This document shows, piece by piece, positions 1 through 57,835 of a stretch of 64,000 nucleotides of DNA. The DNA lies in assembly GCA_029204225.1 (NCBI GenBank), contig CM055111.1, forward strand, positions 15,068,576 through 15,132,575, read 5' to 3'. This stretch comes from Diphasiastrum complanatum (lineage: Eukaryota; Streptophyta; Lycopodiopsida; Lycopodiales; Lycopodiaceae). A model generated the notes under the pieces. The model did no database searches. It worked only from the letters and a program-made list of their open reading frames with translations, and had not been told where the DNA came from. The position numbers and the translations under genes are program-made. Numbering within the stretch: the stretch's first letter is position 1; each line of letters begins with the position of its first letter.

Positions 1-212
1 ACATAATATGGATCAGTCCTTTTCCAGCTCGGTGCCTTCAAGTACTCTTGTAGTTGCTCATATTATTTAACAACATTACAATCCTCTTTGATTCATTCCT
101 CACTTGTGCTAGCAAAGCTCTTGCGAATTTTTCCCGTGACCAAAGCCTTCCAAACTTCTTGAACTGCTTTTTGATATACTTTCGTGCATCTTACATTTCC
201 TTTCTGCTCATC

Positions 213-3129
213 ATGCCTTACACAAATACTTTCCAGTCTTCGCGTTATACTATCTATCATGATGTCCCATCTGCAACGGACATCATGATCCTGCCTAGCA
301 CAAGCATGGTCACTCAGTGGATGACCCTTGTGGATCCTCTGCTCACTGTAATGGGTATTCATGAGAGAGCCTTTCCTGGCAGAATCAACATGGATTTCAT
401 CACTCTTGCCTTCAGTATGTGGAAGGAAGAGAAATCCAAATTTTATATCACCTTTTAGGGAGCCACACACAAGGTGCGCATCACTGAGGCCGCCCCTGCA
501 GCCATAGGTATTGCATCCAGTACACAGGCCTCACCCAATCATAAGTAGGCCAAACAGGCCATAAAGCCTTACATTGATCTCACCAATGATCTGCACTGGA
601 CTGACGACAAATACTTCCTTGATGCCATCACTGAGCCTTCCATCCATGCTGCTGCCCAACTACTGAACAACTTCCTGATGGTTGGCAACCTCAGGAAAGA
701 CCGCATCACTTTAGAAATCCTTCATAGGAAAGTTGAGTCCTATACCAAGTTGGCCAAATCCCCTCTTGAGCCATATAATTGGTTCAAGACTATTTCTGGT
801 GAGCTCAAACGAGCTATAAAGAGCAATACTAAGCAGCAGTTTGCTGCTAGTTCTTTGTTGTCTCTTCTAGCCGCCTCTCACCTAGAAACCAAAATCCATG
901 CCTTCCACCTGGATTCTGTGCTTTTGGTTTATGAAGAAGCACTGGCCGAGTCATCCCACTAGGCCTCAAGTTTCCATAGTCAATGTTGTCCACGCAGCGA
1001 GATCGTCATTCCTGACTCGCCTTCCACGTCACGACGTCGTACTATGCATACATCGTCAGCTGCGCTTCCGTCCCCTGCTGTTGTTCGCACTGAACTTTCT
1101 ATTCTTCCCACCTCTGATGCTTCCCTCGCCTCTGCTTCCACACAAGGGGATACCATTCTTATCACAGCTGCCCAGGCTGCCTCACCCTCGCACACCAAAG
1201 CCACTTCACCAAAAAACTAATTTTTCATGGATATGTTCGATGATTTCGACCCCCTTGGGGCCACCAAAATTTTTGAAATGCCCCAGAGCCCTATGCCCTT
1301 TGAACTTCAATCCTCAGGAAGAGGATTCGAACAAATCCATGACACTACTGTCGATGTTGAAGATTCAAGCCAGCAACCTCAAACTGAAGATGCCCCAGCC
1401 GCACTTCGGGTCGACCAAGCTGTGAAATCACTGAAGCAGTTCAATGCCACCGTGCCTGAGGGTTTCGAGGAAGAAGATATTTTTGAAGAAGAAGAAGTAC
1501 TGGCACCTATTCCACACCAACCAAGGACAGTACGATCAGGTCCTTCTGCTGTTGCCGCCTCCACGACACTAGATTCTGGTGATGTTCTCGGTTTGGTCTC
1601 AAGCCTTGTGCAAGTCATTCAATCTATGCTTGACAAAAAAAATGAAATGGAACAGAGAATTTCAGATTTGGGATCAAAGAACACTCTGATCATTCAAAGA
1701 AGATTGTCTAGCTGAATCGAGAGTTAAACATTGCCATGCAACATGAAGACAAATCTGAGGCTGAAAAGTGACTGGCACAACAACATGCTGATCGTCTTGA
1801 AGGATATGTCAGCTCCTTGCAAAACACCCTGACAACCACACAGAATCAGGTGGATAAGGTTGTGCAGGATGTAAAACAACAGGTGCAACTGCTGAAGGGT
1901 CAGTTGCAGATGGCGGAGCAGGATCGCACGCGCCTTCAAGGTGAATTGGATGCGACCACCCTTGAGCATGATGCGTATCTTTAGACACAATACCAGATCA
2001 TCCGGTCACTCCGACGGAGATTGCGTATTTGTCCAAGAAAGTGAAAACATACAAAGTGGCCCTTCAGAGATTCCAAGGCCGCTTTGACATGTTCAAAGGA
2101 GCAGCTTCAACTGAGTTGGCCAAGGCTAAAGAAACCATTAGCGCCTATGAAAAAGAAGTCGCTCAGGTGTTGGAAGCCAGACCACAAATCCCCGTACCGG
2201 TCCTCCTGCAATTCTTCCCTATGCACCAAGAAGATGTACCAATGGATATAGGGTTAGATTCGGGCATGGACCAGGGGGGAGCTCCAGGTATAGAAGAACA
2301 ACCGCCAATTTTACCGGCAGTGCAAGTGGGTACATCCTCATCAAGGACCACACCTCTATTCAAACGACCCATCAACGTTGAGGACCAGATCCAAGGCTTT
2401 TTATCACAACATCCGCATGAGTCCTCGCGTGGGGGTTGGGTTCTGAAGTTTAAGACCTCCGAGATAGAGGCCGGCAAAGAGTTGGACAAAATACCTACAT
2501 TGGGAGAGCAGTCGGCATGGAGAATTACTGTTTTTGAGAAAACCTTGGAATCAATTAGGAGTTACATTGCCAGATATTGCCAATTGCGGGTAGATCTCTA
2601 TTATGTGCCAATGCCGAGAAGAAATAAATGGAAAGATATGGGATTGGCTATGGAAAAGATCACAATCCATATGCCCAATTGGCCAACCATCCATCAACCC
2701 TATAGCTGGACAATTTCAGTGGACTTCCACCGAGCTTTACAAGCATACCAGAGAGAGTATGTCCACTCTCCAAATCCAACGGTGTGACAATCGGCACTAT
2801 TTGCAAAAGATCTAACTCTGTTGGTGTCAGTGGCAACCAGATGGAACGATTGCCTACCTCCTCTGGCATTCGATCCAAATAAGTTGATGGCCTCAAAGAA
2901 TATCAAAGATCATCTATCGGTTGCTCGTTTATACTTTTGTGCAACAATGATGGGAGGCTCTTGGGAATCACGCTTCACATCATGGACAACCTCAAAGTGG
3001 ATTGTCGGAGCCCATCGTTGTTTTCTACCACACAATTTAGATTTTAATACTGCACGCCTCAACTTTATGGAGAAGGTGCAGTATCATTTAATAAAGATTC
3101 GGTGCGAAGCCAATAAAAGTCCCCAATAA
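213..3129 (+). pseudogene. Extra 3' ORF of gypsy element, copy A (broken)
   Basis: A long reading frame lies between where pol would end (outside the window) and the 3' LTR. It matches a second copy at 30816-33694 along its whole length. The start ATG at 213 is at the same place as in copy B. Segments in order are a mixed N-terminal domain, a Pro/Ser/Thr-rich middle, an acidic Glu-rich patch near 1460-1500, a Gln/Lys/Glu-rich coiled-coil stretch (about 1640-2160), and a conserved C-terminal domain rich in Trp and Tyr (2380-3129). Stops and frame changes near 456, 960, 1220, 1713 and 2785 break it. Plant Tat/Athila-type gypsy elements carry such an extra ORF between pol and the 3' LTR. I do not recognise the protein family and infer no function. 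Confidence 0.7.
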
Positions 3130-3179
3130 CTGCATCTCATAGGTGTCATGAGACCGCCACCAGTTTTGGTGGGGGATAT

Positions 3180-3932
3180 CATTGGAGGGTTTGCGGATCC
3201 CAAGGCAATCCTAACCCTAGTTAATAAGTGAGAGGGATTTGGCACCCTACGTGTGTAAGTCCAGCCCGATGATCACATAGAGATTTGATTAATTAGAAAG
3301 TCAATAAAAGGACTTTAGGCCTTTTTGCGGGACTTTTAATGTCGCAGGGCCTAAATGTCAAGTTAGTAAATAAAGTTGGGTTTCCCTCCAAATTGAATGG
3401 TTCCCGCTCTTTTTTAGATTTGAATAACTAGAGAGGCAAAAATGGACCAATAGGATTCAGAGGCTAGGGTTCTCCTCTCTACTATAAAAAGGGACCAACT
3501 CGAGTTGCTCCTCATGTTCATTTTCTCATTTCAATAAAGCAGATTGGTTCTCTTCAGGAATGGATTGATGAATGTCCTTGATCTCTATCACTTTTCCTCC
3601 ATCTCTCATGCTTTCTTTGGTTTTTGATAATTGTTGGATCTAAATGTTATTGGGATTGTGTGGTACTATACTTTTTATGAGAGATAAAGGAAGAGAGAGA
3701 AAGGGTAAGTTATCTTTGTTGTGGATTGTAGAGTTAATGGATCATAGTGTTAATGGATCATAGGGTTAATGGATGTTAGAGTTAGATGTGAATCCTCCAT
3801 TCATGATTAAAATCTGAACTATACTATCGCTCTCATGGGAACAAACCTACATGTGACAACTAACTTCGTCTCTTTGATGCTAGATTGACTAGATCTTGGA
3901 TTCAGGTTAGGCAAGGAAAGAAACCCACCACA
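3180..3932 (+). repeat. Gypsy 3' LTR, copy A
   Basis: About 753 bp, closely related to the LTRs at 33745-34487 and 57094-57835. It follows a polypurine tract (about 3165-3178, TTTTGGTGGGGGATA) directly after the extra ORF, which marks it as a 3' LTR. The expected TGTTGG start reads CATTGG here, and the end is CCACCACA. A promoter-like TATAAAAAG stands near 3482. It differs from the other two LTRs at many shared positions, so it belongs to a separate, probably older insertion whose 5' part is outside the window. Confidence 0.8.
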
Positions 3933-5191
3933 ATTGATCACTCTTGATCAAGATGGCAAAAGGTTGGTTAGAGAAGACTACATAGAGCAAATCGAGAGGC
4001 AATTGCTTCAAGGAAAGGGAGATCTCATTGGTGAGCTTATTGAGTTATGTTTTGAACTCAAGAAGGCTAGATTTATCAAGTTTGATACTCATCTTCACCT
4101 ACTCTTCTTCATGTTGGATGGATAGTTTGGAATCTATCTTTTGATTTATGATGGTGAAATTGGTGGCATTGTTTTCACTAACATTTGTGAAAGATCGAGA
4201 TCAAGCATTGATGAGATCTTGTTGGATCAAGATAATATGTTTCTTAGGGAGTATTTCCATATCTTTGATATATTTGATGATCAAGAGAAAGGTAAGCAAG
4301 TGGAAGTGACTCATGTTGCTTTACTCACACATTTTGGAGAATCTTCTTGTGTAGATGATGCTATGCAAGTAGATAGATGTTTTCATGATTTTTCAGCAAG
4401 TAATGGATTTGAAAAAGAGGTCTTAGTCAATGATGTTGATGGTCAAGAGGAAGATCAAGAGGTTGATCTCAGAGGGCTTCAACAAGTCAAAAGGGAAGTT
4501 GGCAATTTGAAGCTAGTCAAGAGCATCAAAGGAGAAAAGATGTTTTAGATCTATTTTTGTAGGTGTTTGAAGACTCGAGTAAGGTCAAAAGAAGGCAAGG
4601 AAGTGTTTTCAAGTTTACTTTACTTATTCTATCTCATGTTTGAGCTATGTGTTCAAATTGTCAAGATATGGTCAAACTAGCTACATTGTCTTGCAATTAT
4701 CTTATTGTTGGAGTTGTACTAGCATTCTTGGCTGGATTTGTTGATAGAAATGAAGCTATTGGAGGTTCATTATGTTAGTCATTCATGGCCAAGTCATCAA
4801 GTGTTGATGATATATTGTGGCAAGATGGCAATGGAGGCTCATTCATGGAGTTTTATGGTGGAGACATATCAAGAAAGGACAAAGTTGGAGGAGACAAGCA
4901 AGCAAAAGGTCATTACTCACGTTTATTGTTTGGTTGCTATAATTTTTTAGAGAGTTCAAAGTTTGAAGCATGGAAGAATCATTTCATTCACATTCTATTT
5001 GGTTCTTACATCTTGATGTGTAAAATTGATGTAAGAGATAATGAAACATCCAATTTGGACACTATGATCTATATCAATTATGGAAGCTACTTTAGAACAT
5101 TAGAGTGGAGATCTATACATAGGATGGAGATCATTAATTCGGATCAAACTTATATGGTTAAAACTATGCCAAAACTAGTTGAATAGGGAGT
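3933..5191 (+). other. Unassigned ORF-bearing stretch upstream of a copia LTR
   Basis: The stretch holds open frames at 3934-4125, 4141-4548 and 4785-5186 on the plus strand, rich in Asp, Glu, Lys and Phe. The last runs into a short purine tract (TTGAATAGGGAG) immediately before the copia family 1 LTR. That position suggests the 3' internal part of a copia-type element, but I see no RT, RNase H or integrase motif. A non-autonomous element or a captured host fragment are both possible. Confidence 0.35.
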
Positions 5192-5595: not shown

Positions 5596-5906
5596 TCACA
5601 TGCTTATACATGAGTTCTCTTGAGTTCATCTATGTTGATGATATCTTGCAATCTTGTGTGTAGAATGCTCATATTTTGCTATTTTTTGATCCACACATGA
5701 GAAATATAGTAGGGTACTGTTATTGTATGGACAACAACTTTATTTTATCATATATTTGATGTTTGATCAAATTCTTATTGAGTTTGCATCTCTTTCATCG
5801 AGTAGATGCTGATTTTTCTACATTGACAATGTTGTTGATTGTGTTGACTTTCTAACCAAAGATTAAGGGACACATTTTGGATCTTAATGATCTGAAATTA
5901 TTCTCA
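5192..5906 (+). repeat. Copia LTR, family 1 (copy at 5.2 kb)
   Basis: It begins TGTGAGAG after a purine tract and matches the LTRs at 25986-26647 (minus), 47845-48255 and 52082-52725. The 3' boundary is approximate, because the expected TTCACA end has decayed to TTCTCA. The copy contains a long internal microsatellite. It is probably the 3' LTR of a degraded element. Confidence 0.65.
5472..5596 (+). repeat. Compound microsatellite (TTC)n(TC)n(AC)n inside a copia LTR
   Basis: Roughly 33 bp of TTC units are followed by about 70 bp of CT repeat and about 22 bp of AC repeat. The same position in the other family 1 LTRs holds a short or long CT/GA run, so the tract expanded inside the LTR. Confidence 0.9.
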
Positions 5907-5968
5907 ATATCTAGAAGTTGTAAAACCTAAAAAAATCAAATCCGATTTGTGTTATAAATAGAATTTGT
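5907..5968. other. Short spacer between copia LTR and CACTA remnant
   Basis: AT-rich sequence with no recognisable feature. Confidence 0.3.
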
Positions 5969-7296: not shown

Positions 7297-8165
7297 TCAA
7301 CATAACTTGTTCTCACTAAATAGATAAAATGTATTTTGATATTTACATGCTTGAGTTTGGCTCAAAGCCTTTTGTACGCATCTTGGAAGAGGATGATTGA
7401 AGATATATTTGATAAATAGCTCTTCACCACATTTAATGGGCCTTATCGCACATACCATTATGTATGTACCTTTTAAGTTCCTACAAAAGTCTTCTTTTTT
7501 TCCATTGGTGCATTTTTCAAAATCACAATTAGTTAATGAAGGGTGACCAATGGAACTATTTATATATGCAGCAATATTTGCTATGTTTTTCTGGATGCCC
7601 ATCAATATACATACGATGTGATTTCAAAACATTTTCTCCTTGCATAGGCCACTCTTTCAAAGAACAAGCATTAGCATTCAAGCCATAAACCTGCATTCTC
7701 CATTGGTGACGACACAGAGCATGTCAATCACCCCAATTGTATTAGGTCCTGCATAAGACATTAATGTGACAACACTACTCAAAGGGACATCAATGCTAGT
7801 CAAAGAAAATAAACCCAATCCCACGTTAGGAAAGTGCTCACTTGGCTTGATCATATACATATGACCCCAATATGAAAATGATGTTCCACATAATGATAAT
7901 GGTACTCTATCAGGCCAACGTTACATAAATAGTTATCCAATGAAATTGCTTTATCAACAACAAATGTAGATTTCAAAGCATCCCATTTCATTGTCTTGTC
8001 ATACAAAGTAATAAACACCATGGATCTTAAAGGTAAGAAACAAGTCACCCCATGTCTACTAATACTTTCCAAAAAGTATTCAAAGATAGTAGACTCTCCA
8101 ATGCTCACCACCCTTGCAAGATGCACACTTGAATGGACAATTTGCATGCAATTTGATGACTCGGC
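7297..8165 (-). pseudogene. SET-domain protein remnant
   Basis: On the minus strand, two frames together give the outline of a SET methyltransferase domain: a GLGLFS block (usual G-x-G-L-F/Y), then N-I-A-A-Y-I-N-S in place of the N-H-S-C core, then an Asn-Cys pair, and finally an I-R-P-I-K-x-G-E-E-L-F-x-x-Y block that forms the pseudoknot in real SET domains. A frameshift near 7600 and stops near 7678 and 7850 break it. The canonical His-Ser-Cys of the cofactor pocket is lost. The upstream part (8165-7860) looks coding but matches nothing I know. SET proteins normally methylate lysines on histones. This copy is unlikely to be active. Its neighbours suggest capture by a DNA transposon. Confidence 0.6.
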
Positions 8166-26647: not shown

Positions 26648-26917
26648 GTTCCATTCATAAGTATAAGGCTAGACTTGTAGCAAAAGGATTTTTGCAAGTC
26701 AAAGAAATAGATTATGATGAAACCTTTGCTCTTGTTGCAAAGCTTGTAACCATTAGATTGATCATATGTCTTGCTACTTCTTTCAAATGGGAGTTCTTTC
26801 AACTTGATGTGACAAATAATTTCTTGAATGGATTCTTGGAAGAGAAAATTTAGATGTGCCAACCCGAGGGATTCATCAAACATGGAGAAGAAGACAAAGT
26901 GTGCTTTTTGAAGAAGC
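26648..26917 (+). pseudogene. Copia X reverse transcriptase, N-terminal part
   Basis: Plus strand reads HKYKARLVAKGFLQ, DYDETFALVAKLVTIRL and FFQLDVTNNFLNGFLEE, then PEGFIKHGEEDKVCFLKK, the canonical first third of copia RT with its LDV-x-NAFLNG block. There is an in-frame stop at 26851. At about 26917 it switches abruptly to gypsy protease sequence. The missing C-terminal RT half appears on the minus strand from 54600. Confidence 0.85.
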
Positions 26918-29900
26918 ACCGCATACAGAATTACTCATGAATATTTTGTCTAGCAAGATCAATATCTCATTGGGAGAGTTCCTAAAGTTGGTGCCAAAAA
27001 CAAAAGAAGTCTTAACGCAAAAGTTAGCTCAAGAAGAATCAGAAGACCATCAGGAGCCGCTTTTTTGTGCTGGATTTGAAGAATCTAACGATGTACTCCA
27101 TGTTGGAGCCGCTTGGGAAAGTGAACAAAAGAATATCACTCTGTCGATACAATATAGACAATTTTCTGAAGAAGCAGTCGTGATAGATGGCGGTTCAGGA
27201 GTTAACCTGATTTCTACAAAGCTATGTACAAAATGGGGCCTTACAAAGATTAAGCCTGCTACTTTTGCTATTAAACTAGCTAATCAAACGACAGTTCGTC
27301 CACGAGGAATGGTGGAAGATATACCTGTCAGGATTGTAGGAGTACAGTTCGTCATTACTTTCATCGTGATGGACTTACCAGAAGCACCAAATGTCTACCG
27401 AGTTCTCTTAGGACGTCCATGGTTACGAGTTGCACAAGTAATTCATAACTGGGGTACCGGCAAACTCACTTTTGAAAATCGTGAACGTGCAGTTAAAGTT
27501 GATCCTACAACTTGGACTATCAAGCTAGTGGTTGGAAAATTGCAAATCTGTGTGAATCTCAAAGCATTGAATAAAGTGACACGGAAGGATCACGTTCCGT
27601 TGCCTATTATTGAAAGCATTTTGGATCGCCTTGCTGGAACGGAAGCTTATAGTTTCCTGGATGGATTTAGTGGTTACAACCAGGTTAAGATTGCACCTGC
27701 CGATCGCCACAAAATTGCTTTTGCAACAAAATGGGACACCTATGCTTACAAAGTAATGTCATTTGGACTCTGTAATGCACCAAGTTCATTCCAAAGAGTA
27801 ATGCAATTTACCTTTAAAGATTATCTGCAGAAATTCCTTGAAATTTATTGGACGACTTGGGAGTTCATAGTACAGATACAGACCACCTGGATCGATTAGA
27901 GAAAGTCTTTGAAAGATGCCGCAAATATCAGATTTCTCTAAATCCAGAAAAATGCCAGATATGGATTTCTCATGGAGTGGTGCTTGGACATGTGATATCA
28001 AGACATGGTATTACCACCGATTATTCTAAGATCAAAGTTATTGTGGAATTTCCACTGCCAGCAACAATTCGAGGAGTTTATGTGTTTATGGGTCATGCGA
28101 ACTACTATTGAATTTTTATTGTCTTCTTTGCGAATTTAGCACGACCTATATACAAATTAACTACTGTTCCTATTTGGACAGTAGAGGCGTTAGAAGCCTT
28201 TGAAAAATAAAAAAAAGCATTATCTTCAGCACCAATTCTGCGTTCTCCAGATTGGACATTAGAGTTTCATGTTCATACGGATGTCTCAAAATACGCCATT
28301 GGATCATTTTTAATGCAGCCAGGTGACTATAAGAAGGATTATCCTATACGATTTGCAAGCAGACAACTTACAGATCCAAAGAAGAATTATTCAACAACAG
28401 AACGTGAAGCACTAGCCATGATTTTTTCTGTTCGGAAATTTCGTCACTACCTCATGGAAATGCACTTTGCATTTCATACGGATCATCAACCGTTACTTTA
28501 CTTGTTAAATAAGACATGTAATACTGGACGTATTGCAAGATGGTTATTATTATTGACTGAATTTGACTTTCGAATTGTGGTCAGAAAGGGAAAGCAACAT
28601 TATCTAGCCGATCACATTTCGCAAATTGAATCCGCACCAGTTAATACTGAAGTGGATGATGAACTGCCAGATGCTACGTTGTTCTATGTTGAAGCAATAC
28701 CTGAGTGGGCGGCAAATATTGTTGAGTACCTAATGCTAGGACAACCGAATGACTCTTTGACAAAAGTACAGAAAAGACAATTGATTCATAAGGCTCAACC
28801 TTATCAATTAATTGCAAGACAATTGTATTGTCGTGGATCAGATAATATTTTACGAAGATGTGTTTTACCGCATGAAGTACCAGATTTAATCATGTTTTCA
28901 CATGATGGCATGGGTGGAGGACACTTCTCTATAGATATTACTGTTTGCAAACTTTTGCAATTCGGTTGTTGGTGGCCTATGCTTCATAAGGACACAGAAA
29001 ATTTTATTCAGACATGTGATGTCTGCCAGCGAGCACGACGACCTACTCGACAGAATTATGAACCCTTACATCTGGTTTTATCGCAAGCATCGTTTGAAAA
29101 ATGGGAACTTGAATATGTTGGTCCTATTCATCCCGTTGTGCAAGGATCTCAGGCCCGATACATTATTGTCGCAGCTGATTATATGACCAAGTGGGTTGAA
29201 GCCAAAGTTGTCAAAGTGACTGATGTGAAATCTACGGCCAAGTTTCTATATGAAAATATTATAATCAGATTTGGATGTCCGATTGAAATTGTCAGTGATC
29301 GGGGTACACACTTTGTTAATCAAACAATAAATTGTTTATTGGAAGATTTTTTTGTTATACACAGATTTAGTACTCCCTATTATCCCAGAGGGAATGGCCA
29401 AGCTGAATTTTCCAATAAGATTCTCTGCACCATTATGACAAAGACAGTTGAAGCAAGTCGGTCTGATTGGGAACATAAACTGTATGCAACATTATGGGCA
29501 TTCAAAACCGCTTACAAAAATAGTACAAATCAAACACCTTTTCAATTGGTTTATGGTCAAGATGTTGTTATGCCAATTGAATTTTTAATCCCATCTTTAC
29601 GCATAGCAGCAATAGAACGATTAAATGATGATCAGTTTTTACAACTTCGTCATGAAGCGGTGCACAAATTATGTGAAACCCGATTGATGGCAGTTCATGC
29701 CTTAGCAGCAGAGAAAGCCCGCCGCAAGGCATGGCACGATTGTCGATTGCACAAGAAAGATCTGGAAGCAGGAGATCTTGCATTGATGTACAAAACCAAG
29801 CTAATTAAGGGTAAGTTGAAGTTTACTGGTGAAGGCCCGTATAAAATGAAGGAAATCCTGAACTATGACGAAGTAATTCTTGAGCACTTGGATGGAAAAC

Positions 29901-29974
29901 GATTTGATACTCGAATCAATGACAACCGATTACGCAAGTTTTGGCAGCCTGCTCTGCCAGTTCAGCAAGTCTGA
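26918..29974 (+). pseudogene. Gypsy pol: protease, RT, RNase H, integrase (copy B)
   Basis: Domains in order are an aspartic protease (VVIDGGSGVNLIS, Asp codon at 27186), RT (RKDHVPLPIIESILDRLAG, FLDGFSGYNQ, FGLCNAPSSFQR), an LDDL catalytic box shifted by one base at about 27845, RNase H (HTDVSKYAIGSFL, TTEREALAM, HTDHQPLLY), and integrase with an H-H-C-C zinc site (CDVCQRA) and the second Asp in VSDRGTHF. The first catalytic Asp of integrase (usually DFVGP) reads EYVGP. The first part of the RT is deleted near 27525. Stops occur near 28110 and 28207. From 28313 the frame is open for 553 codons. Gag, primer site and 5' LTR are absent here and match the minus-strand piece at 54601-57835. Architecture with a further ORF after pol suggests the Tat/Athila side of gypsy. 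Confidence 0.9.
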
Positions 29975-30815
29975 TCTCAATATATATTTTTATTTTATTT
30001 GTTTTCAATTTTTTGTTCTCAGTATTTAATTTGCTGACTTTTTTTGGAAAAAGACAGTTAAAAAAAAAAAACAAGAAAAAGAGAAAAAAAATAAAATAAA
30101 AAAAGACTGATGAGCAAAAGTCAAGAAGTCATCAACATAAGGAAAAGGAAGCACAGTATTTTTTTTTTTTTAATGAAAAATGACTTAGAAAACCACTGTT
30201 TGGACAGAATTGGCCAATACAGTATTAGAAACCTGCGCTGAGCTCTCAGACTGTACATCCACCCTTCATTTATTTGAATTGAAGTGGGCGAAGGTTTTGA
30301 CAAGAGAAAAATCAATTTTTGAGTCAGGCGAATGTTCAGTGATATTTCATTTTGAGAATCTTTGTCGAGTATCATAACCTCATTATGAACCTTCGCCGAC
30401 CTGCTAGATGATTTTAAAATGTCAAAATTAGGTTGTCAATAGGTTCAGATTGTGGAAAAAAATATTTATGACAGTACCTGGGCGAAGGACCCTCCTGGGC
30501 GAAGGTTCATCCTTCGCCAGCTCTGGAAAACGTTCGCCTGATAGGTTCAGATCCCTAGAAACCTTCGCCAAGATTTCTATAGCCTATTTTTACAGTATTG
30601 TACATGCTTGCAAATTTTTGTTTAGAACTGATCAGCCCAACTACTATTCAGTGTAATGGACCCACCAAATTCACCTATAAGTTGGTTGAATTTGATTCAT
30701 TCCTCACCTATGCTAGCAAAGCTCTTGCGAATTTTTCTTGTGACCAAAGCCTTCCAGATTTCTTGCATTGCCTTCTGATACACTTTCACGCATTTATAAT
30801 TCCTTTCTGATCATC
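29975..30815 (+). other. Gypsy post-pol spacer with A-rich tract and GGCGAAGG motifs
   Basis: Non-coding. An A-rich run at 30057-30116 is followed (30280-30575) by about eight copies of GGCGAAGG or its complement CCTTCGCC and close variants, in both orientations. The same motif recurs in the leader of the other half of the element (56120-56770). Confidence 0.6.
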
Positions 30816-33694
30816 ATGTCTTCTACCAATACTTCCCAGTCTCCACGCTATACTATCCATCGTGATGTCCCATCTGCAACGGACATCATGATTCTTCCTA
30901 GCACAAGCATGGTACTCAGTGGATGACCCTTGCGGAACCTCTACTTACTACAATAGGTATTCATGAGAGAGCCTTTTCGGGATGCATCAATATGGATTTC
31001 ATCACTCTTGCCTTTAGTACGTGGAAGGAAGAGAAATCCAAGTTTTATATCACCTTCCAAGGAGCCGCACACAAAGTGCGCATCACTGAGGCCGCACTTG
31101 CAGCTATAGGAATCTCATCTGGTACGCAAGCCTCACCCAATCACAAGCATGCCAAACAGGCCATCAAGCCATACATTGACCCACCAATGATCTGCACTGG
31201 ACTAATGATGGCTACCTTCTAGAAGCCATCACTGAGCCTTCCATCCACACCGCTGCCCAGTTGTTGAATCATTTCCAGATGGTTGGCAACCTCAGGAAAG
31301 ACCGCATCACATCTCAAATCCTTCACAAGATAGTGGAGTCTCACACTAAGTTGGCCAAAGCTCCTCTTGAACCATATAACTGGTTCAAGACTGTTTCTGG
31401 TGAGCTCAAGCGAGTTATTAAGGCCAATACAAAGCAGCAGTTCGCCGCTGGCTCTCTATTGTCCCTCTTAGCCGCTTCTCACTTAGAAAACAGAATCCAT
31501 GGCTTCCACCTGGATTCTGTGCTTTCGGTTTACGAAGAAGCACCGGCTGAGTCATCTCATCAGGCCTCAAATTCTCATAGTTGTCGTCGTCCACGCAGCG
31601 AGATCGTAATTCCTGACTTGCCTTCCACGTCACGACGTCGCACTAGGCATACCTCGTTAGCTGCGCTTCCACCTCTTGATGTTGTTCGCACTGAACTTCC
31701 CATTCCCCTCGCCTCTCATGTTTCCCTCACCTCTACTCCCATACAAGGACAAACTGTGACCATTGGGCCTACCATTCCCATCACATCTGCCTAGGCCGCC
31801 TCACCCCTGCACATCGAAGCAACCTCACCTAACACACAGTTCTTCATGGATATGTTCGATGATTCCGACCCCCTTGGGGCCACCGAAATCTTTGAAATGC
31901 TCCAGAGCCCAGTGCCCTTTGAACTCCAATCCCTTGGAAGAGAATTTGGGCATATCCATGAATCTACGGTTGGTGTCGAAGATGTCAGTCAGCAACCACC
32001 CACACAGGGTAGCCCAGCCACACTTCGAGTCGACACAGCTGTAAAGTCACCAAAGCAATTCGATGCCACAGTGCCTGAAGGGTTTGAAGAAGAGGATACT
32101 TTTGAAGAAGAAGAGACCTTGGCACCTAGTCCATGCCTACCAAGGACAGTACCATCAGGGTCTCCTGTTGCTGCCACCTCCACGACCGTTGATTCTGGTG
32201 ATGCTCTAGGGTTAGTTTTCAGTCTTGGGCAAGTGATCCAGTCTATGCTGGATAAGAAGAAGGAAATGGAGCAGAGGATCTCTGATCTAGGATCCGAAAA
32301 CACTCTGATCAGCTAGAAAATTGTCCAGCTGGATCGAGAGGTGAAGATAGCCAAGCAACATGAAGAAAAGGGCGAAAGTGAAAAGACATTGGCCCAGCAA
32401 CAAGCTGATCGCTTGGAAACCTACATCAGCTCCTTGCAAAACGCCTTGACAATCGCACAGGATCAGGTAGATAAGGCAGTGCAAGAGGCCAAGCAACAAG
32501 TGCAGCTGCTGAAGGGGCAATTACAGATGGCCGAACAAGATCGCACATGGCTTCAAGGTGAATTGGATGCGACCACCCTTGAGCGTGATGCCTATCTGCA
32601 AACACAAATACCCGATCATCTGGTCACACCGACGAAGATTGCATATTTGTTCAAGAAAATGGAAACATACAAAGTGGCCCTTCAGGGATTCCAAGGCCGC
32701 TTCAATAGGTTCAAAGGAGCAGCTTCAACCGAGCTGGCAAAGGCAAAAGAGACCATCAACGCCTATGAAAAAGCCGCCACTCAAGTGTTGGAAGCCGGAC
32801 CACAAATCCTTGTCCCAGTCATGCCGCAATTCTCCCCTTCACGCCAAGAAGCTGTACAAATGGATACAAGGGTTGATTCGAGCATGGACCAGGGAGGAGC
32901 TCCAGATCTAGCAGATCAACCGCCAATCATACAGGCAGTACAAGTGGGTCCATCCTCATCAAGGACAAGCCATTTATTCATAAGGCCCATCAGCGTTGAG
33001 GACTAGATCTAGACCTTCTTAAAGCAACATCCACATGAGTCCTCGCGTGGGGGATGGGTTCTCAAATTTAAGACCTTCGAGATCGAGGTCGGCAAAGAAT
33101 TGGACAAAATACCTGCACTGGGAGAGCAGTCGGCATGGAGAATCACAGTTGCGGGTAGATCCTTATTATGTGCCAATGCCACAAAGACATAAATGGAAAG
33201 AGTTGGGATTGGCTATGGACAAAATCACCATCCATACGCCCAATTGGCCAATCATCCATCAACCTTACAACTGGAACATTTCAGTGGACTTCCACCGGGC
33301 CTTACAAGCATATCAGAGAGAGTATGTCCACTCTCCGGATCCAACGGTGCGACAATCGGCAATGTTTGCAAAAGATCTAACTTTTTTGACATCAGTGGCA
33401 ACCAAATGGGACGATTGCCTTCCTACCCTGGCATTCGATCCAAATAAGCCGATGGCCTCAGAGCAAATCAAAGATCAGCTGTCGATTGTTCGACTGTATT
33501 TTTGTGCGGCTATGATGGGAGGCTCTTGGGAATCCCGCTTCACCTCATGGACAAGTTCCAAGTGGATTGTCGGAGCCCACCGTTGTTTCCTGCCGCATAA
33601 TTTGGATTTCAATACTACACACCTTGATTTTATGGAGAAGGTGCAGTATCATTTAATTAAGATTCGGCGCAAAGCCAATAAAAGTCCCCAATAA
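30816..33694 (+). pseudogene. Extra 3' ORF of gypsy element, copy B (broken)
   Basis: The same ORF as at 213-3129, starting at ATG 30816. Relative to copy A it has a one-base deletion near 30914, stops at about 31792, 32315, 33004 and 33010, and a deletion of about 60 bp near 33150. The Gln/Lys-rich coiled-coil region is 32330-32790 and the Trp-rich C-terminal domain is 33150-33694. Comparing both copies shows that stops fall at different places, so the parent encoded one protein of roughly 900-950 residues. The function is unknown. A structural or nucleic-acid-binding role is only a guess from the coiled coil. Confidence 0.75.
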
Positions 33695-33744: not shown

Positions 33745-34487
33745 TGTTGGAGGGTTTGCGGATCCCAAGCCAATCCTAACCCTAGTTAATAAGTGAGAGG
33801 GATTTGGCACCCTGCGTGTGTAAGTCCAACCCAATGATCACATAGTTATTTGATTAATTAGAAGTCAATAAAAGGACTTTAGTCCTTTTTGCGGGACTTT
33901 TAATGTCGCAGGGCCTAAATGTCAAGTTAGTGAATAAAGTTGGGTTTCCCTCCAATTTTGATGGTTCCCACACTTTTTTAAATCTGAATAAAAAGAGAGG
34001 CAAGACTGGACCAATAGGATTCAGAGGCCAGGGTCCTCCTCTCTACTATAAAAAGAGACCAACTCAAGTTGCTCCTGATGTTCATTTCCTCATTTCAATA
34101 AAGCAGATTGATTCTCTTTAGAAATGGATTGATGAATGTCCTTGCTCTTCCTCTCTTTTCCTCCATTTCTCATGCTTCCTTTGTATTTGCTAATTGTTGG
34201 ATTTGATCATTATTGGGATTGCTATTTCTTATGCTTTTTGTGAGAGAGAAAAGGAGAGAGAGAAGAGTAAGTTTCTATCATTGTTGTGGATTTAGGGTTA
34301 ATGGAAGTAGGGTTAATGGATGTAGTGTTAATGGAAGTTAGTGTTAGATCCTCCATTCATGTTGAAATCTGAACTATACTATCACTCTCATGGGAACAAA
34401 CCTCCGCGTGACAACTAACTTCGTCTCTTTGATGCTAGATTGACTAGATCTTGGATTCAGGTTAGGCAAGGAAAGAAACCCACTACA
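33745..34487 (+). repeat. Gypsy 3' LTR, copy B
   Basis: 743 bp, TGTTGG to CACTACA, preceded by the purine tract TTTTGGTGGGGGATAC. By eye it differs from the minus-strand LTR at 57094-57835 at about 25-30 positions and from copy A at clearly more. It is followed by AACAT (34488-34492), identical to the bases preceding the 5' LTR of copy C. TATAAAAAG near 34044 is a likely core promoter. Confidence 0.9.
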
Positions 34488-34512
34488 AACATTGTCCCCT
34501 AACAGTTTATCT

Positions 34513-35499
34513 TTATTTTCTAATTCCTATGTCTCTAGCGAAGTCATGGTATGATAAGAGGAGATTGAAAATTGTAATGGGGACGAAATATTTTAGATGA
34601 GTAGAAAGTAATTGATCGTACTGTACATATTTATTAGAATCTACAAAAGTTAATGAAGGAGGGGCGGGAAAAGATACAAAAATATGGCTCAATGTATCAC
34701 TCAGGAAAAACGATTTAGAGAGTTGTGTGGACTGTTCAATAGATTTGGGAGGGGATTTAGAAACTGATTTATGTGTATTGGGAGGAGATTTGGAAGGGGA
34801 TTTAGAAACTGATTTTTGAGGAGATTTGGAAGGGGACTTGGATGGGTACTTGAATGGGGACTTGGGAAAAGATGATGAAGAGGAAGAAGAGGGGGGAGAA
34901 GGGGTTGGTGTTCAAGGAGAAGCTACTAACTTTAGAATAGCCCTCACTTTCTTTGGAGGGGCTAAGGATCTTTTCTTTTTGATAGCAACATGTTGAACGA
35001 TTCCTGGTAGCCTCTTTGGTTCAACCTACTTCATCTTCCTTGCTAAAGTGGTGGTAGCAATAGCTGAAGCAGGATGAGGTGGCCGAAAATTATGGGCAAA
35101 TGTCTCATATGCATCCATCATATGAAATATCAGCACAAAATCTTTGGGACTTATTGTTATCCTTCTTCCATGTATTGCAGCTACAACACAATCTGAAAAG
35201 AGTTTTATTTAAAAATTTTCATAAAATTTGTGCAGTGTTTCAACTGCAGTCACAGTCCATCTTACATCTGCTGAAATATCCTTGGTCACCTACTTGATAC
35301 ATCTTTGCATGTGAGCCTTGGGGATGAGGAGGTTCATCGTTTTTTGAAGCCTCTTAATATCTTTCAGCCATGCTGGATCTCTGGGCCAACCCACTCTCCT
35401 TGGTGCTACTTGTTGCCTTTGAGATGAAGGTGGAGGTGGAGATGGCTATGGAGATGCAACTACACTCACAAGATCTACATTTCAAGCCAAATTTTTCAT
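34513..35499 (-). pseudogene. Histone H3/CENH3-like ORF with SPKK tail, retroelement-associated
   Basis: One minus-strand frame runs from an in-frame ATG at 35499 to a stop at 34515-34513, broken by about six stops (for example 35446, 35290, 35209, 35026, 34912) but no frameshift. Residues coded by 35370-35116 align with the whole H3 histone fold: LKDIKRLQK (alpha N), NLLIP, QRCIK, DVRWT, a middle helix, LFSD, AAIHGRRITISPKDF. The AIHxxRxTIxPKD block is diagnostic of H3. NLLIP, RW, LFSD and KDF are the forms usual in plant CENH3 rather than canonical H3. The usual N-terminal tail is replaced by a Pro/Ser-rich stretch. After the fold comes a basic segment (KKKRSLAPPKK) and a Ser-Pro-Ser-Lys repeat tail (34914-34682), like DNA-binding SPKK motifs of linker histones. 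A copia LTR and primer site lie immediately upstream. Confidence 0.75.
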
Positions 35500-35532
35500 C
35501 ACTCTTGATGCATGGATTATTATCTTAGGTAG

Positions 35533-35544
35533 GTTCTGGTACCA
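35533..35544 (-). other. Copia family 5 primer-binding site
   Basis: Minus strand TGGTACCAGAAC directly follows the LTR end AAAACTTCACA. It has ten of twelve matches to the initiator-Met site TGGTATCAGAGC. Confidence 0.6.
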
Positions 35545-36478
35545 TGTGAAGTTTTCACACGTGTGGGGACAGTCTCCTAAGATGTGGGTGATTGCACAAA
35601 GATCAAGGACTTGGTGGATTTCAAGATCTATCGTCAAAAATCTAAGGCAAGCGCACATAGAATATGCATAAATCATTCACCAAAGTACATACACATGTAA
35701 AGGCAACTCATGATAAAAAAAAGTAAGTATAGAATACAAGGACTAGCTCTTGAGTAGAGAGAGAAAGCAACAAAATCTCTAAGTGTAAAATCTCACACAA
35801 TCTCCAAAAAACTAGGTGTAGAATGGTTCCCTCTCACATACTAGTAGTAACTCGAGGTAGGGAGAGTGAAATATGATTGGACCCCTTCTTTTCCTCATCC
35901 TAATTTGATTAGCTTAGTGACATAAGGGCCCTCAAATTTGATTGGACCAATTTCATGGATCTCTCTCTTTTGATTAGTCACATGATCTCAAGACAACTCA
36001 TAAGAGATTGCCACTCACCCTCTCTCATCATGACAAATGTAGAAAGCCTAAGCTAGCTCGAGCCACAACACGTTCCAAATTTGTGTATAAGGACTAAAAA
36101 ATTCTAGACACCCCTAAACTCAACATAGATTGATTTTACCAAATTTTCACAAGAATCACCTCCTACTTTGATTGGACCACTTACATGCCACATCTTACAT
36201 TGATTGGACCATTTTGGGCATCCTTCACTATGATTGGTCCATATTGACAAATAAGATTATGAGGTGCAATGTCACTAGCCCTCTACAATCAAGCCAAGTG
36301 TAAGTAACCTACACTACCATGAGCTAATCCAAGTCTAAATTTGGCCTAATCATATAATTACAAGTGTACAATGAGTGGTTTTGATAGAGGACCCCTAAAC
36401 CTCAACTTTAAGGCCTATTGACTATTCAAGCTCAAAATAAATGAACTAAAGTGATTATGCCTACCGTCCACATGTAAG

Positions 36479-37691: not shown

Positions 37692-37703
37692 GCTCTGATA
37701 CCA
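37692..37703 (-). other. Copia primer-binding site (element at 37-38 kb)
   Basis: Minus strand TGGTATCAGAGC next to the LTR end TTTTGTCA. Confidence 0.8.
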
Positions 37704-39592: not shown

Positions 39593-39657
39593 GGGCAAGG
39601 AGGGGATTGAGGGGAGGAATCGCTGCTGTGGCATTGTCAGCAAAAGTGTGAGCGACT

Positions 39658-40545
39658 ATGCCTACGCTTCCAGGCATTTCTTCTGCAGCAGCATCTGTTG
39701 CTGTGCAGTTGCCATCTCAGGCAGAAGCAGAACCCCAACACTGTCCAACAGTTTACTCGCTCTCGCGCCCATTTCTCAGGCAAGATGCTTCCCTTTCCCT
39801 TGGGCTGCAGACATGGAGGGGACTCAGACCCATTGGGAAGAAGCCTTCCCAGCTTTTGAGACAAACAACAGCAGCAACACATTTTGTAGCTCGCAATAAC
39901 GACAGGGGACGATCCGAACAATTAGGGTTACGGGCTTTGTTCACAGGCATTGTGGAAGAGCTGGGAAATGTGCGAGAGGTGCGATTGACGGAAGATGGCG
40001 GCTATGAGATGAGGATAGACGCAAACATTGTTATTGAGGATGTGAAGCTTGGGGATAGCATCTCCGTGAACGGCACATGCCTCACTGTCACGCATTTTGA
40101 TTCCAAGGGTTTCACCGTCGGTTTGTCTCCAGAAACCCTTCGAAGAACTTCCTTAGGGGAGGCATTTGCTGGATCTCCGGTCAATCTGGAGCGGTCGCTG
40201 CAGCCAGTGTCCCGGATGGGGGGCCATTTCGTGCAGGGACATGTGGACGGCACAGGAACTATTGTATCCTTCAATCCAGAAGGGGATTCATTATGGGTTA
40301 AGATAAAAACATCGGCAGATCTACTGAGATACATTGTGCCGAAAGGCTACATATCTGTGGACGGGACCAGTTTGACAGTTGTTGGGGTTTATGATGAGGA
40401 GAGCAGTTTTACATTTATGCTGGTGGCTTACACACAGCAAAAGATTGTGATTCCAGTGAAGAAGCTTGGGAGCAAAGTCAACCTTGAAGTGGACATTGTG
40501 GGGAAGTATGTCGAGCGGCTACTCAAGGGTTATAGCAAAGCATAG
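39658..40545 (+). CDS. ribE: Riboflavin synthase (alpha-type), plastid-targeted
   Basis: The 295-residue intact protein converts two molecules of 6,7-dimethyl-8-ribityllumazine into riboflavin and 5-amino-6-ribitylaminouracil, the last step of riboflavin synthesis (ribE/RIB5 type). Residues 1 to about 90 are Ser/Arg/Gln-rich and poor in acidic residues, as in a chloroplast transit peptide. The mature part starts near LFTGIVEELG (94-103). Two lumazine-binding barrels follow: the first with SVNGTCLTV (136-144), the second opened by MGGHFVQGHVDG (187-198) and carrying SVDGTSLTV (233-241). It ends VGKYVERLL (281-289), a trimerisation helix typical of the family. Length and both barrels are normal. 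The ATG at 39658 is the first that gives a targeting sequence. The coding region has no intron. Downstream, AATAA near 40647 may serve in polyadenylation. It is the only clearly functional enzyme gene in the window. Confidence 0.96.
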   Translation: MPTLPGISSAAASVAVQLPSQAEAEPQHCPTVYSLSRPFLRQDASLSLGLQTWRGLRPIGKKPSQLLRQTTAATHFVARNNDRGRSEQLGLRALFTGIVEELGNVREVRLTEDGGYEMRIDANIVIEDVKLGDSISVNGTCLTVTHFDSKGFTVGLSPETLRRTSLGEAFAGSPVNLERSLQPVSRMGGHFVQGHVDGTGTIVSFNPEGDSLWVKIKTSADLLRYIVPKGYISVDGTSLTVVGVYDEESSFTFMLVAYTQQKIVIPVKKLGSKVNLEVDIVGKYVERLLKGYSKA

Positions 40546-57093: not shown

Positions 57094-57835
57094 TGTAGTG
57101 GGTTTCTTTCCTTGCCTAACCTGAATCCAAGATCTAGTCAATCTAGCATCAAAGAGACGGAGTTAGTTGTCACGCGGAGGTTCGTTCCCATGAGAGCAAT
57201 AATATAGTTCAGATTTCAACATGAATGGAGGATCTAACACTAACATCCATTAACACTAAGCATTAACACTACATCCATTAACCCTAAATCCACAACAAAG
57301 ATAGACACTTACTCTTCTCTCTCTCCTTTTCTCTCTCACAAAAAGCATAAGAAATAGCAATCGCAATAATGATCAAATCCAACAATTAGCAAATACAAAG
57401 GAATCATGAGAAATGGAGGAAAAGAGAGGAAGAGCAAGGACATTCATCAATCCATTTCTAAAGAGAACCAATCTGCTTTATTGAAATGAGGAAATGAACA
57501 TCAGGAGCAACTCGAGTTGGTCCCTTTTTATAGTAGAGAGGAGGACCCTGGCCTCTGAATCCTATTGGTCCAGTCTTGCCTCTCTTTTTATTCAAATTTA
57601 AAAAAGTGTGAGAACCATCAAAATTGGAGGGAAACCCAACTTTATTCACTAACTTGACATTTAGGCCTTGCGACATTAAAAGTCCTGCAAAAAGGCCTAA
57701 AGTCCTTTTATTAACATTCTAATTAATCAAATAACTATGTGATCATTGGGTTGGACTTACACACGCAGGGTGCCAAATCCCTCTCACTTATTAACTAGGG
57801 TTAGGGTTGCCTTGGGATCCGCTAACCCTCCAACA
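57094..57835 (-). repeat. Gypsy 5' LTR, copy C
   Basis: 742 bp on the minus strand, TGTTGG to CACTACA, followed by the primer site, so it is a 5' LTR. It is preceded (minus reading) by AACAT (57836-57840). Closest relative in the window is the LTR at 33745-34487. Confidence 0.9.

Follow-up and report, generated by a model that had tools for sequence, protein, structure and literature searches.

A minus-strand reading frame at positions 34513–35499 of the window (the whole 64,000-nucleotide stretch of Diphasiastrum complanatum DNA analysed here, C20:15068576–15132575) encodes a histone-like protein close to a retroelement LTR, and raises the question of whether a mobile element carries its own histone and, if so, which element and which histone. 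The first-pass annotation had suggested a copia retroelement with a CENH3-like gene. Searches of the genome (1.74 Gb, 5,176 contigs) show that the gene behind this histone stretch exists in hundreds of copies, of which the window holds a decayed one. We consider it likely, with a probability of about 0.77, that this copy is an old, broken fragment of the third gene (ORF3) of a large mobile element with several genes, and that the element is most likely a DNA transposon. The broad idea of a mobile element with its own H3-like histone holds; the element is probably not the copia one.

The histone fragment and its borders

The minus frame 35499–34513 matches the Pfam Histone family over residues 28–123 (E = 6.1e-17, 62.5 bits against a cut-off of 26.4, with internal stops entered as X), and its best matches in the PDB are H3 chains (5.2e-14), as are all of the best 60. 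The H3 fold that had been read by eye, with an HMM search named as its check, is thus borne out by a significant match above the cut-off. The Pro-rich N-terminal part and the Ser-Pro-x-Lys C-terminal tail are both present, and the several internal stops that had been reported number six. Two details of the first reading need correction: small indels relative to the related locus L010 shift the frame around 34,580, near its 3′ end, where no frameshift had been claimed, and the frame is not histone from its very start, as the homology of 19 fetched loci opens no earlier than query base 55.

Three parts of an H3-like gene can be followed on the minus strand. A 5′-truncated piece at 35131–35445, homologous to 20 fetched loci, comprises a Pro-rich segment and the H3 fold (Pfam match 35418–35131). 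It is followed by a basic stretch and a Ser-Pro-x-Lys linker at 34650–35130, which lie in the same order as in the younger locus L039 and are under weak constraint, and by the start of a conserved C-terminal domain at 34492–34649 (FVDSNKYVQYDQLLSTH..), in which the frame is changed near 34580. There the copy is cut off by a plus-strand gypsy LTR (33745–34491, TGTT..AACA), the ends of which can be read. This LTR has a 96% identical relative at 57094–57835, which in turn is 88% identical to 3182–3935.

At the other border, the copia-type LTR end and primer site that had been reported upstream of the frame are present. The 3′ part of the LTR (35545–36150, minus strand) ends in ..CTTCACA, and a primer binding site of tRNA-iMet type with two mismatches (35533–35544, minus strand) is read directly 3′ of it, starting at 35544. 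When the LTR end and leader were searched against the genome, there were 3,100 first-look candidates, of which 40 were scored, 38 of them at other places. At 15 of these 38 places the match stops at the LTR end (query 605–609 of 705), supporting that end, and the pattern of LTR end plus primer site occurs 15 times in the genome with up to three mismatches. The next stretch, 35446–35532 on the minus strand, is not histone and includes about codons 1–18 of the earlier frame. It belongs to the LTR element as leader, because the matches of 7 of the 38 other LTR places continue through it up to the junction with the H3-like copy.

The same border is seen from the histone side. Homology to the window copy in 19 loci (without L009, discussed below) starts at window position ~35445 or later and ends at ~34491; one unfetched match reaches further, to query base 43. 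Homology among the copies therefore opens ~100 bp inside the LTR element, which means that the first 18 codons of the earlier frame are retroelement leader and that the gene's own start (MARTKQTAR) has been lost. The junction sits in a CCACCT run, and a deletion that joined the LTR remnant to the H3-like copy is probably the simplest account of it. The copia LTR remnant and the gypsy LTR border the fragment by chance.

This is also what the other copies indicate. Among the 20 old copies fetched outside the window, the same LTR and primer site accompany L009 alone (G000:C20:14743047–14744033), which is 99.9% identical to the window copy, lies 360 kb away in the opposite orientation and is probably a segmental or assembly duplication. 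With L009 excluded, 18 of the 19 fetched loci have no primer site within 2.5 kb upstream at up to two mismatches, and the remaining one, L028, has a primer site of another kind 930 bp upstream. Conversely, none of the 38 other LTR places has a listed H3-like neighbour within 10 kb (nearest, 44 kb), a comparison in which the H3-like lists are lower bounds and 6 of the 38 LTR places are on small contigs that have no listed H3-like place. A search for copies inside the same LTR pair, which the first-pass annotation had put forward, found 0 among the 19 independent fetched copies. Its placement of the frame where gag would be expected also fails, as gag begins ~600–800 bp past the primer site in three copia elements of the window. 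We therefore reject the capture of a histone by the copia element: among the copies and LTR places examined, its LTR stands beside an H3-like copy only in the window and in the duplicate L009.

Several other features of the window were recorded. The three copia elements in which the distance to gag was read, at 37703, 13644 and 10390 (minus strand), have intact iMet primer sites. A plus-strand gypsy element at 26820–33694 encodes reverse transcriptase, RNase H and integrase, as well as a long further coding region with no Pfam match in the three pieces scanned, and its part from 30691 onwards is repeated at 87–3933. A plus-strand frame at 39652–40542 encodes a riboflavin synthase lumazine-binding domain (Pfam Lum_binding, 6.8e-47) and is probably a host gene or gene copy.

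A repeated gene for a divergent H3

The gene is abundant. A DNA search with the window copy gave at least 90 match rows from the best 40 of 421 first-look candidates. A second H3-like search had 11,031 first-look candidates, the best 150 of which were scored, and by our count 48 of the ~150 listed rows are free of stops. Besides the window, 20 old loci were fetched, together with three younger ones (L039, L040 and L041). One young H3-like subfamily occupies 660 places in the genome (pattern search, up to two mismatches; reversed control, 0). A search with the P0001 fold separated its 150 listed places into 13 at 69–71% identity, which are probably host H3 genes, and 137 at 49–55%, mostly without stops and with open frames of up to 417 amino acids, which may represent a third, younger H3-like group that is less diverged than that of the window. 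Five H3-like copies lie within 190 kb at G000:C23:24881892–25071836, two of them 3.25 kb apart; this cluster is a local tandem duplication.

The residues RW, LFSD and KDF are linked to CENH3, and the first reading had relied on them. They are present in the family, which shares the H3 fold and these single residues with CENH3/CENP-A, yet the classification does not rest on them. A tree of 16 fold sequences places the nine family rows in a single clade (100/100) that has a long stem and no CENH3 rows inside; the other seven rows (H3 and CENH3, the host CENH3 not among them) are mutually unresolved. The identity of the family fold is ~33–45% to H3, CENP-A, Cse4 and three H3-like proteins alike. 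Loop 1 of the family has the canonical H3 length, whereas CENP-A is longer by two residues and Cse4 by three in the alignment, and the N-terminal tail is of H3 type. The family is a divergent H3. The assignment to CENH3 is unsupported: the tree, partly unresolved as it is, gives no grouping with CENH3, and loop 1 and the N-terminal tail speak against it. With it, the proposed targeting of a retroelement to centromeres also loses its support.

The complete gene can be read in better-preserved copies. In many of them an H3 start, MARTKQTARLSSGGVPLHAAA or a variant of it, opens the frame further upstream. In the younger copy L039, one uninterrupted frame of 417 codons runs from an H3 N-terminal tail through the H3 fold (Pfam Histone, 72.0 bits; cut-off, 26.4) and a Ser-Pro-Lys linker into a C-terminal domain. 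Its product aligns with H3 over residues 1–131, and the 60 PDB chains listed are of H3 type. The domain after the linker is conserved (..KYVQYDQLLSTHLKSF..LDT.ELENKDKMLGDN..PYIYK). Three short exons come after the 417-codon frame. Their boundaries can be read, the exact limits being our own reading, and intron-like stretches separate these later exons. A protein of 223 amino acids from another public assembly (P0113) keeps the linker and C-terminal domain at 47% identity, on a contig too short to hold the H3 fold; this part of the architecture therefore exists outside the present genome.

Both ends of the protein have distinctive features. We examined 22 H3 starts (19 old loci and 3 young), 17 of which are readable (14 old and 3 young). 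Lysine is kept at K4 in 17 of these 17 starts, in a largely conserved ARTKQTAR, and is found at K9 and at K14 in none (0 of 17). In the later exons of L039 and L040, the motif HW..N..QQ..SCG is readable in order. Proteases of the Ulp1/C48 type follow the order His-Trp, Asp/Asn, Gln, Cys-Gly, and from this pattern the C-terminal domain may be Ulp1/C48-like. When exons of our choosing from L017 and L020 were blended into one query, it reached 17.9 bits for PF02902 (C48), below the cut-off of 20.7 (E = 0.0028), and neither the L039 query nor an earlier joined ORF3 query matched this family.

Substitution patterns differ along the protein. Among the old copies, the median omega is 0.34 for the fold (171 pairs) and 0.74 for the tail (149 pairs), from 19 aligned rows that comprise the window and 18 loci (L014, in which part of the region is missing, and the duplicate L009 were dropped). 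For L039 and L040 against L041, omega is 0.22–0.23 for the fold and 0.25–0.32 for the C-terminal domain, with 0.40–0.68 for the N-terminal tail and 0.74–1.24 for the linker. For the very close pair L039/L040, omega is 1.17 in the fold, where there are four synonymous changes, and 0.55 in the C-terminal domain, values that might be expected of dead copies. ORF2 (0.19–0.24, two pairs) and ORF1 (0.38–0.75, four pairs), which lie upstream of the H3-like gene, were compared as well. Taken with the fold and C-terminal domain, these values suggest that the proteins were constrained while the family spread.

The probable carrier element and competing explanations

On the putative carrier, the genes are ordered ORF1 (+), ORF2 (−) and the H3-like ORF3 (+). 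A tblastn search of the 19 non-window loci (L009 set aside) found the H3 fold in 19, ORF2 in 9, ORF1 in 5 and the C-terminal domain in 13 (L010–L012, L015–L017, L019, L020, L022, L023 and L026–L028). Order and orientation are constant across the 19 loci except for an inverted segment in L023 and an inverted exon match in L028. These neighbour counts are not all independent, because L020 and L023 are recent duplicates and L016 and L028 are very similar. Among the young loci, L040 and L041 have ORF1, ORF2 and ORF3, and the 9.9 kb of L039 has ORF3 alone. In all, ORF1 is absent from the fetched stretch in 14 of the 19 old loci and 1 of the 3 young ones.

In a pattern search of the genome, ORF1 itself occurs at 2,200 places (up to two mismatches; reversed control, 0). 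On contigs C1 and C2, an upstream zero-mismatch ORF1 site accompanies 4 of the 21 zero-mismatch H3 sites, on the same strand and no more than 10 kb away; ~0.055 would be expected, a figure for which the length of C2 was assumed, and one of the four is L041, which had already been chosen. No site (0) showed the pair in any other arrangement. The other 17 of the 21 have no such ORF1 site within 10 kb and may be truncated or diverged copies. In the 49–55% identity group, the member C2:20203095(−) has a zero-mismatch ORF1 site on its own strand 3.8 kb upstream. Copies share DNA for up to several kilobases upstream and ~2 kb downstream. Within the fetched stretches we found neither terminal inverted repeats nor target-site duplications, and no end of the element. 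One 20-bp inverted match, which pairs the start of ORF1 in X19 with the right-hand parts of L017 and L025, was considered as a terminal repeat and set aside as weak and lying by coding DNA.

ORF1 has 111 homologues in public assemblies, including a fern prediction from Adiantum (P0109) that is homologous over 23% of the query. Neither the ORF1 pieces nor the homologues match a Pfam family above the cut-off in the ORF1-like part; a DUF7794 match in P0109 falls outside that part. The 21 homologues scanned have no hAT match and a single Zw10_N match at 0.0091, and the MULE family of mudrA-type transposases matches neither them nor the ORF1 pieces. A comparison with the PDB gave no convincing chain, and none of 88 pattern matches for ORF1 among IMG/VR viral contigs was confirmed. 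Conserved residues of ORF1 (..KLDE.., ..AGDLKTLKC.. and ..HICTLH..) would suit a DDE transposase.

ORF2 is a conserved gene on the minus strand, opposite to ORF1 and the H3-like gene, at 2236–3749 of L019, 2344–3571 of L024 and 1629–2918 of L040 (H3 orientation). Its stretch LAHYLKxxLNNEICVYHTSYSPCA resembles deaminase motifs by eye; ORF2 has no Pfam match, and we do not claim a deaminase identity. Signs of a fourth gene are present on the minus strand at the right side of the element (L040, ~7530–8057; L025, ~5740–5930; H3 orientation). The carrier would thus comprise ORF1 (+), ORF2 (−), ORF3 (+) and perhaps a fourth gene, moved as one unit by a putative ORF1 transposase.

Other explanations place the gene in the host, in a retroelement or in a virus. 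A lone host CENH3 pseudogene beside an unrelated LTR, the alternative named in the first-pass annotation, is unsupported because the gene exists in hundreds of copies, often with other repeated genes beside it. A broader version, in which a host H3-variant family made many segmental pseudogenes and ORF1 and ORF2 are unrelated repeats that lie nearby by chance, is unlikely and is still the strongest competitor: a master gene can give constraint, and many copies have no ORF1 in the fetched stretch. Against it, the order and orientation of ORF1, ORF2 and H3 recur in old and young subfamilies, DNA is shared for several kilobases upstream and ~2 kb downstream, and four coupled sites stand against ~0.055 expected. 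The copies are also not processed, as the intron-like stretches between the later ORF3 exons indicate. A conserved host master gene would mimic the signal of ORF3 alone, and not readily that of three neighbours moving together.

An endogenized DNA virus rather than a transposon seems more doubtful again. Genes packed densely on both strands of a unit of at least ~7 kb, among them a histone and a possible protease, would suit a virus, and viral H3 genes are known (PMC9145170), whereas no ORF1 relative was confirmed in IMG/VR, the copies are dispersed over thousands of places and no capsid or polymerase was noticed in the parts read. Very improbable, finally, is the model of a copia retroelement that exchanged its gag for a captured CENH3-like gene and put the product to work at centromeres. 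In its favour, the frame begins just downstream of an LTR end and primer site. Against it, the arrangement was seen only in the window copy and in L009, the gene's genuine start is absent where the two pieces join, no copy was seen with this LTR on both sides and the CENH3 identity has no support. We thus favour a multi-gene DNA transposon, of which the window retains part of ORF3.

Proposed function and known systems

The silencing of transposons works through marks on histone H3. In the transposon reading, ORF3 would enter or mimic host chromatin: its H3 part would join nucleosomes with host H4, or imitate the H3K4 tail, and without K9 it would be closed to the silencing mark placed on that lysine. 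Proteins bound to chromatin could be the targets of the C-terminal domain. On the basis of sequence features, we tentatively propose that ORF3 may be an anti-silencing H3 that pairs with host H4 and escapes K9 methylation, or else a decoy for binders of the H3 tail, with a C-terminal domain that acts on chromatin proteins. A wider proposal, to which we give slightly less credence, is that these plant DNA transposons form a superfamily not yet described, whose own H3 variant has the K4 tail but neither K9 nor K14 and is fused to a conserved effector domain. K9-less nucleosomes, whether built or imitated, would shield its elements from silencing and so have allowed them to reach thousands of copies. 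If this is true, a family that kept a constrained H3, lacking the silenced lysine and joined to a second conserved domain, throughout a long expansion would offer a direct test of whether mobile DNA can rewrite the chromatin code of its host. In such genomes, histone counts and searches for CENH3 risk being swamped by repeat copies.

A search of the open-access literature found no plant transposon with an H3-like gene. Transposons of the hAT group make 8-bp target duplications; neither such a duplication nor any other was found in the fetched stretches, as noted above. Three known systems invite comparison. Histones encoded by viruses likewise provide cases of mobile genomes that carry H3 with altered or extended tails (PMC9145170). 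They reside in viral genomes, whereas ORF1 here has no confirmed viral relative. The KIU (Kaonashi) and VANC proteins of Vandal MULEs are products of plant accessory genes that counter silencing, some of them with a Ulp1 domain (PMC13317346), and the word ‘histone’ is absent from the main text of that review. The likeness, that of a plant DNA transposon with an accessory gene, concerns only the way in which the system would work; by contrast, ORF1 here has no MULE match, and the C48 match is below the Pfam cut-off.

The closest comparison comes from a fungus. In Pyrenophora tritici-repentis, a hAT transposon of ~5.6 kb bears an H3-like gene, H3L, and the reference contains 26 H3L genes that are very similar to one another (Manning et al. 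2013, PMC3538342). H3L matches neither H3 nor CenH3 completely and has changes in its tail (PMC3538342). Both cases combine a repeated DNA element, a transposase (here putatively ORF1), a further open reading frame and an H3-like gene with tail changes. The present family differs in that ORF1 matches neither hAT nor another Pfam family, in that a linker and a conserved C-terminal domain are joined to its H3, and in that it comprises hundreds of copies of several ages, with signs of purifying selection, in a plant.
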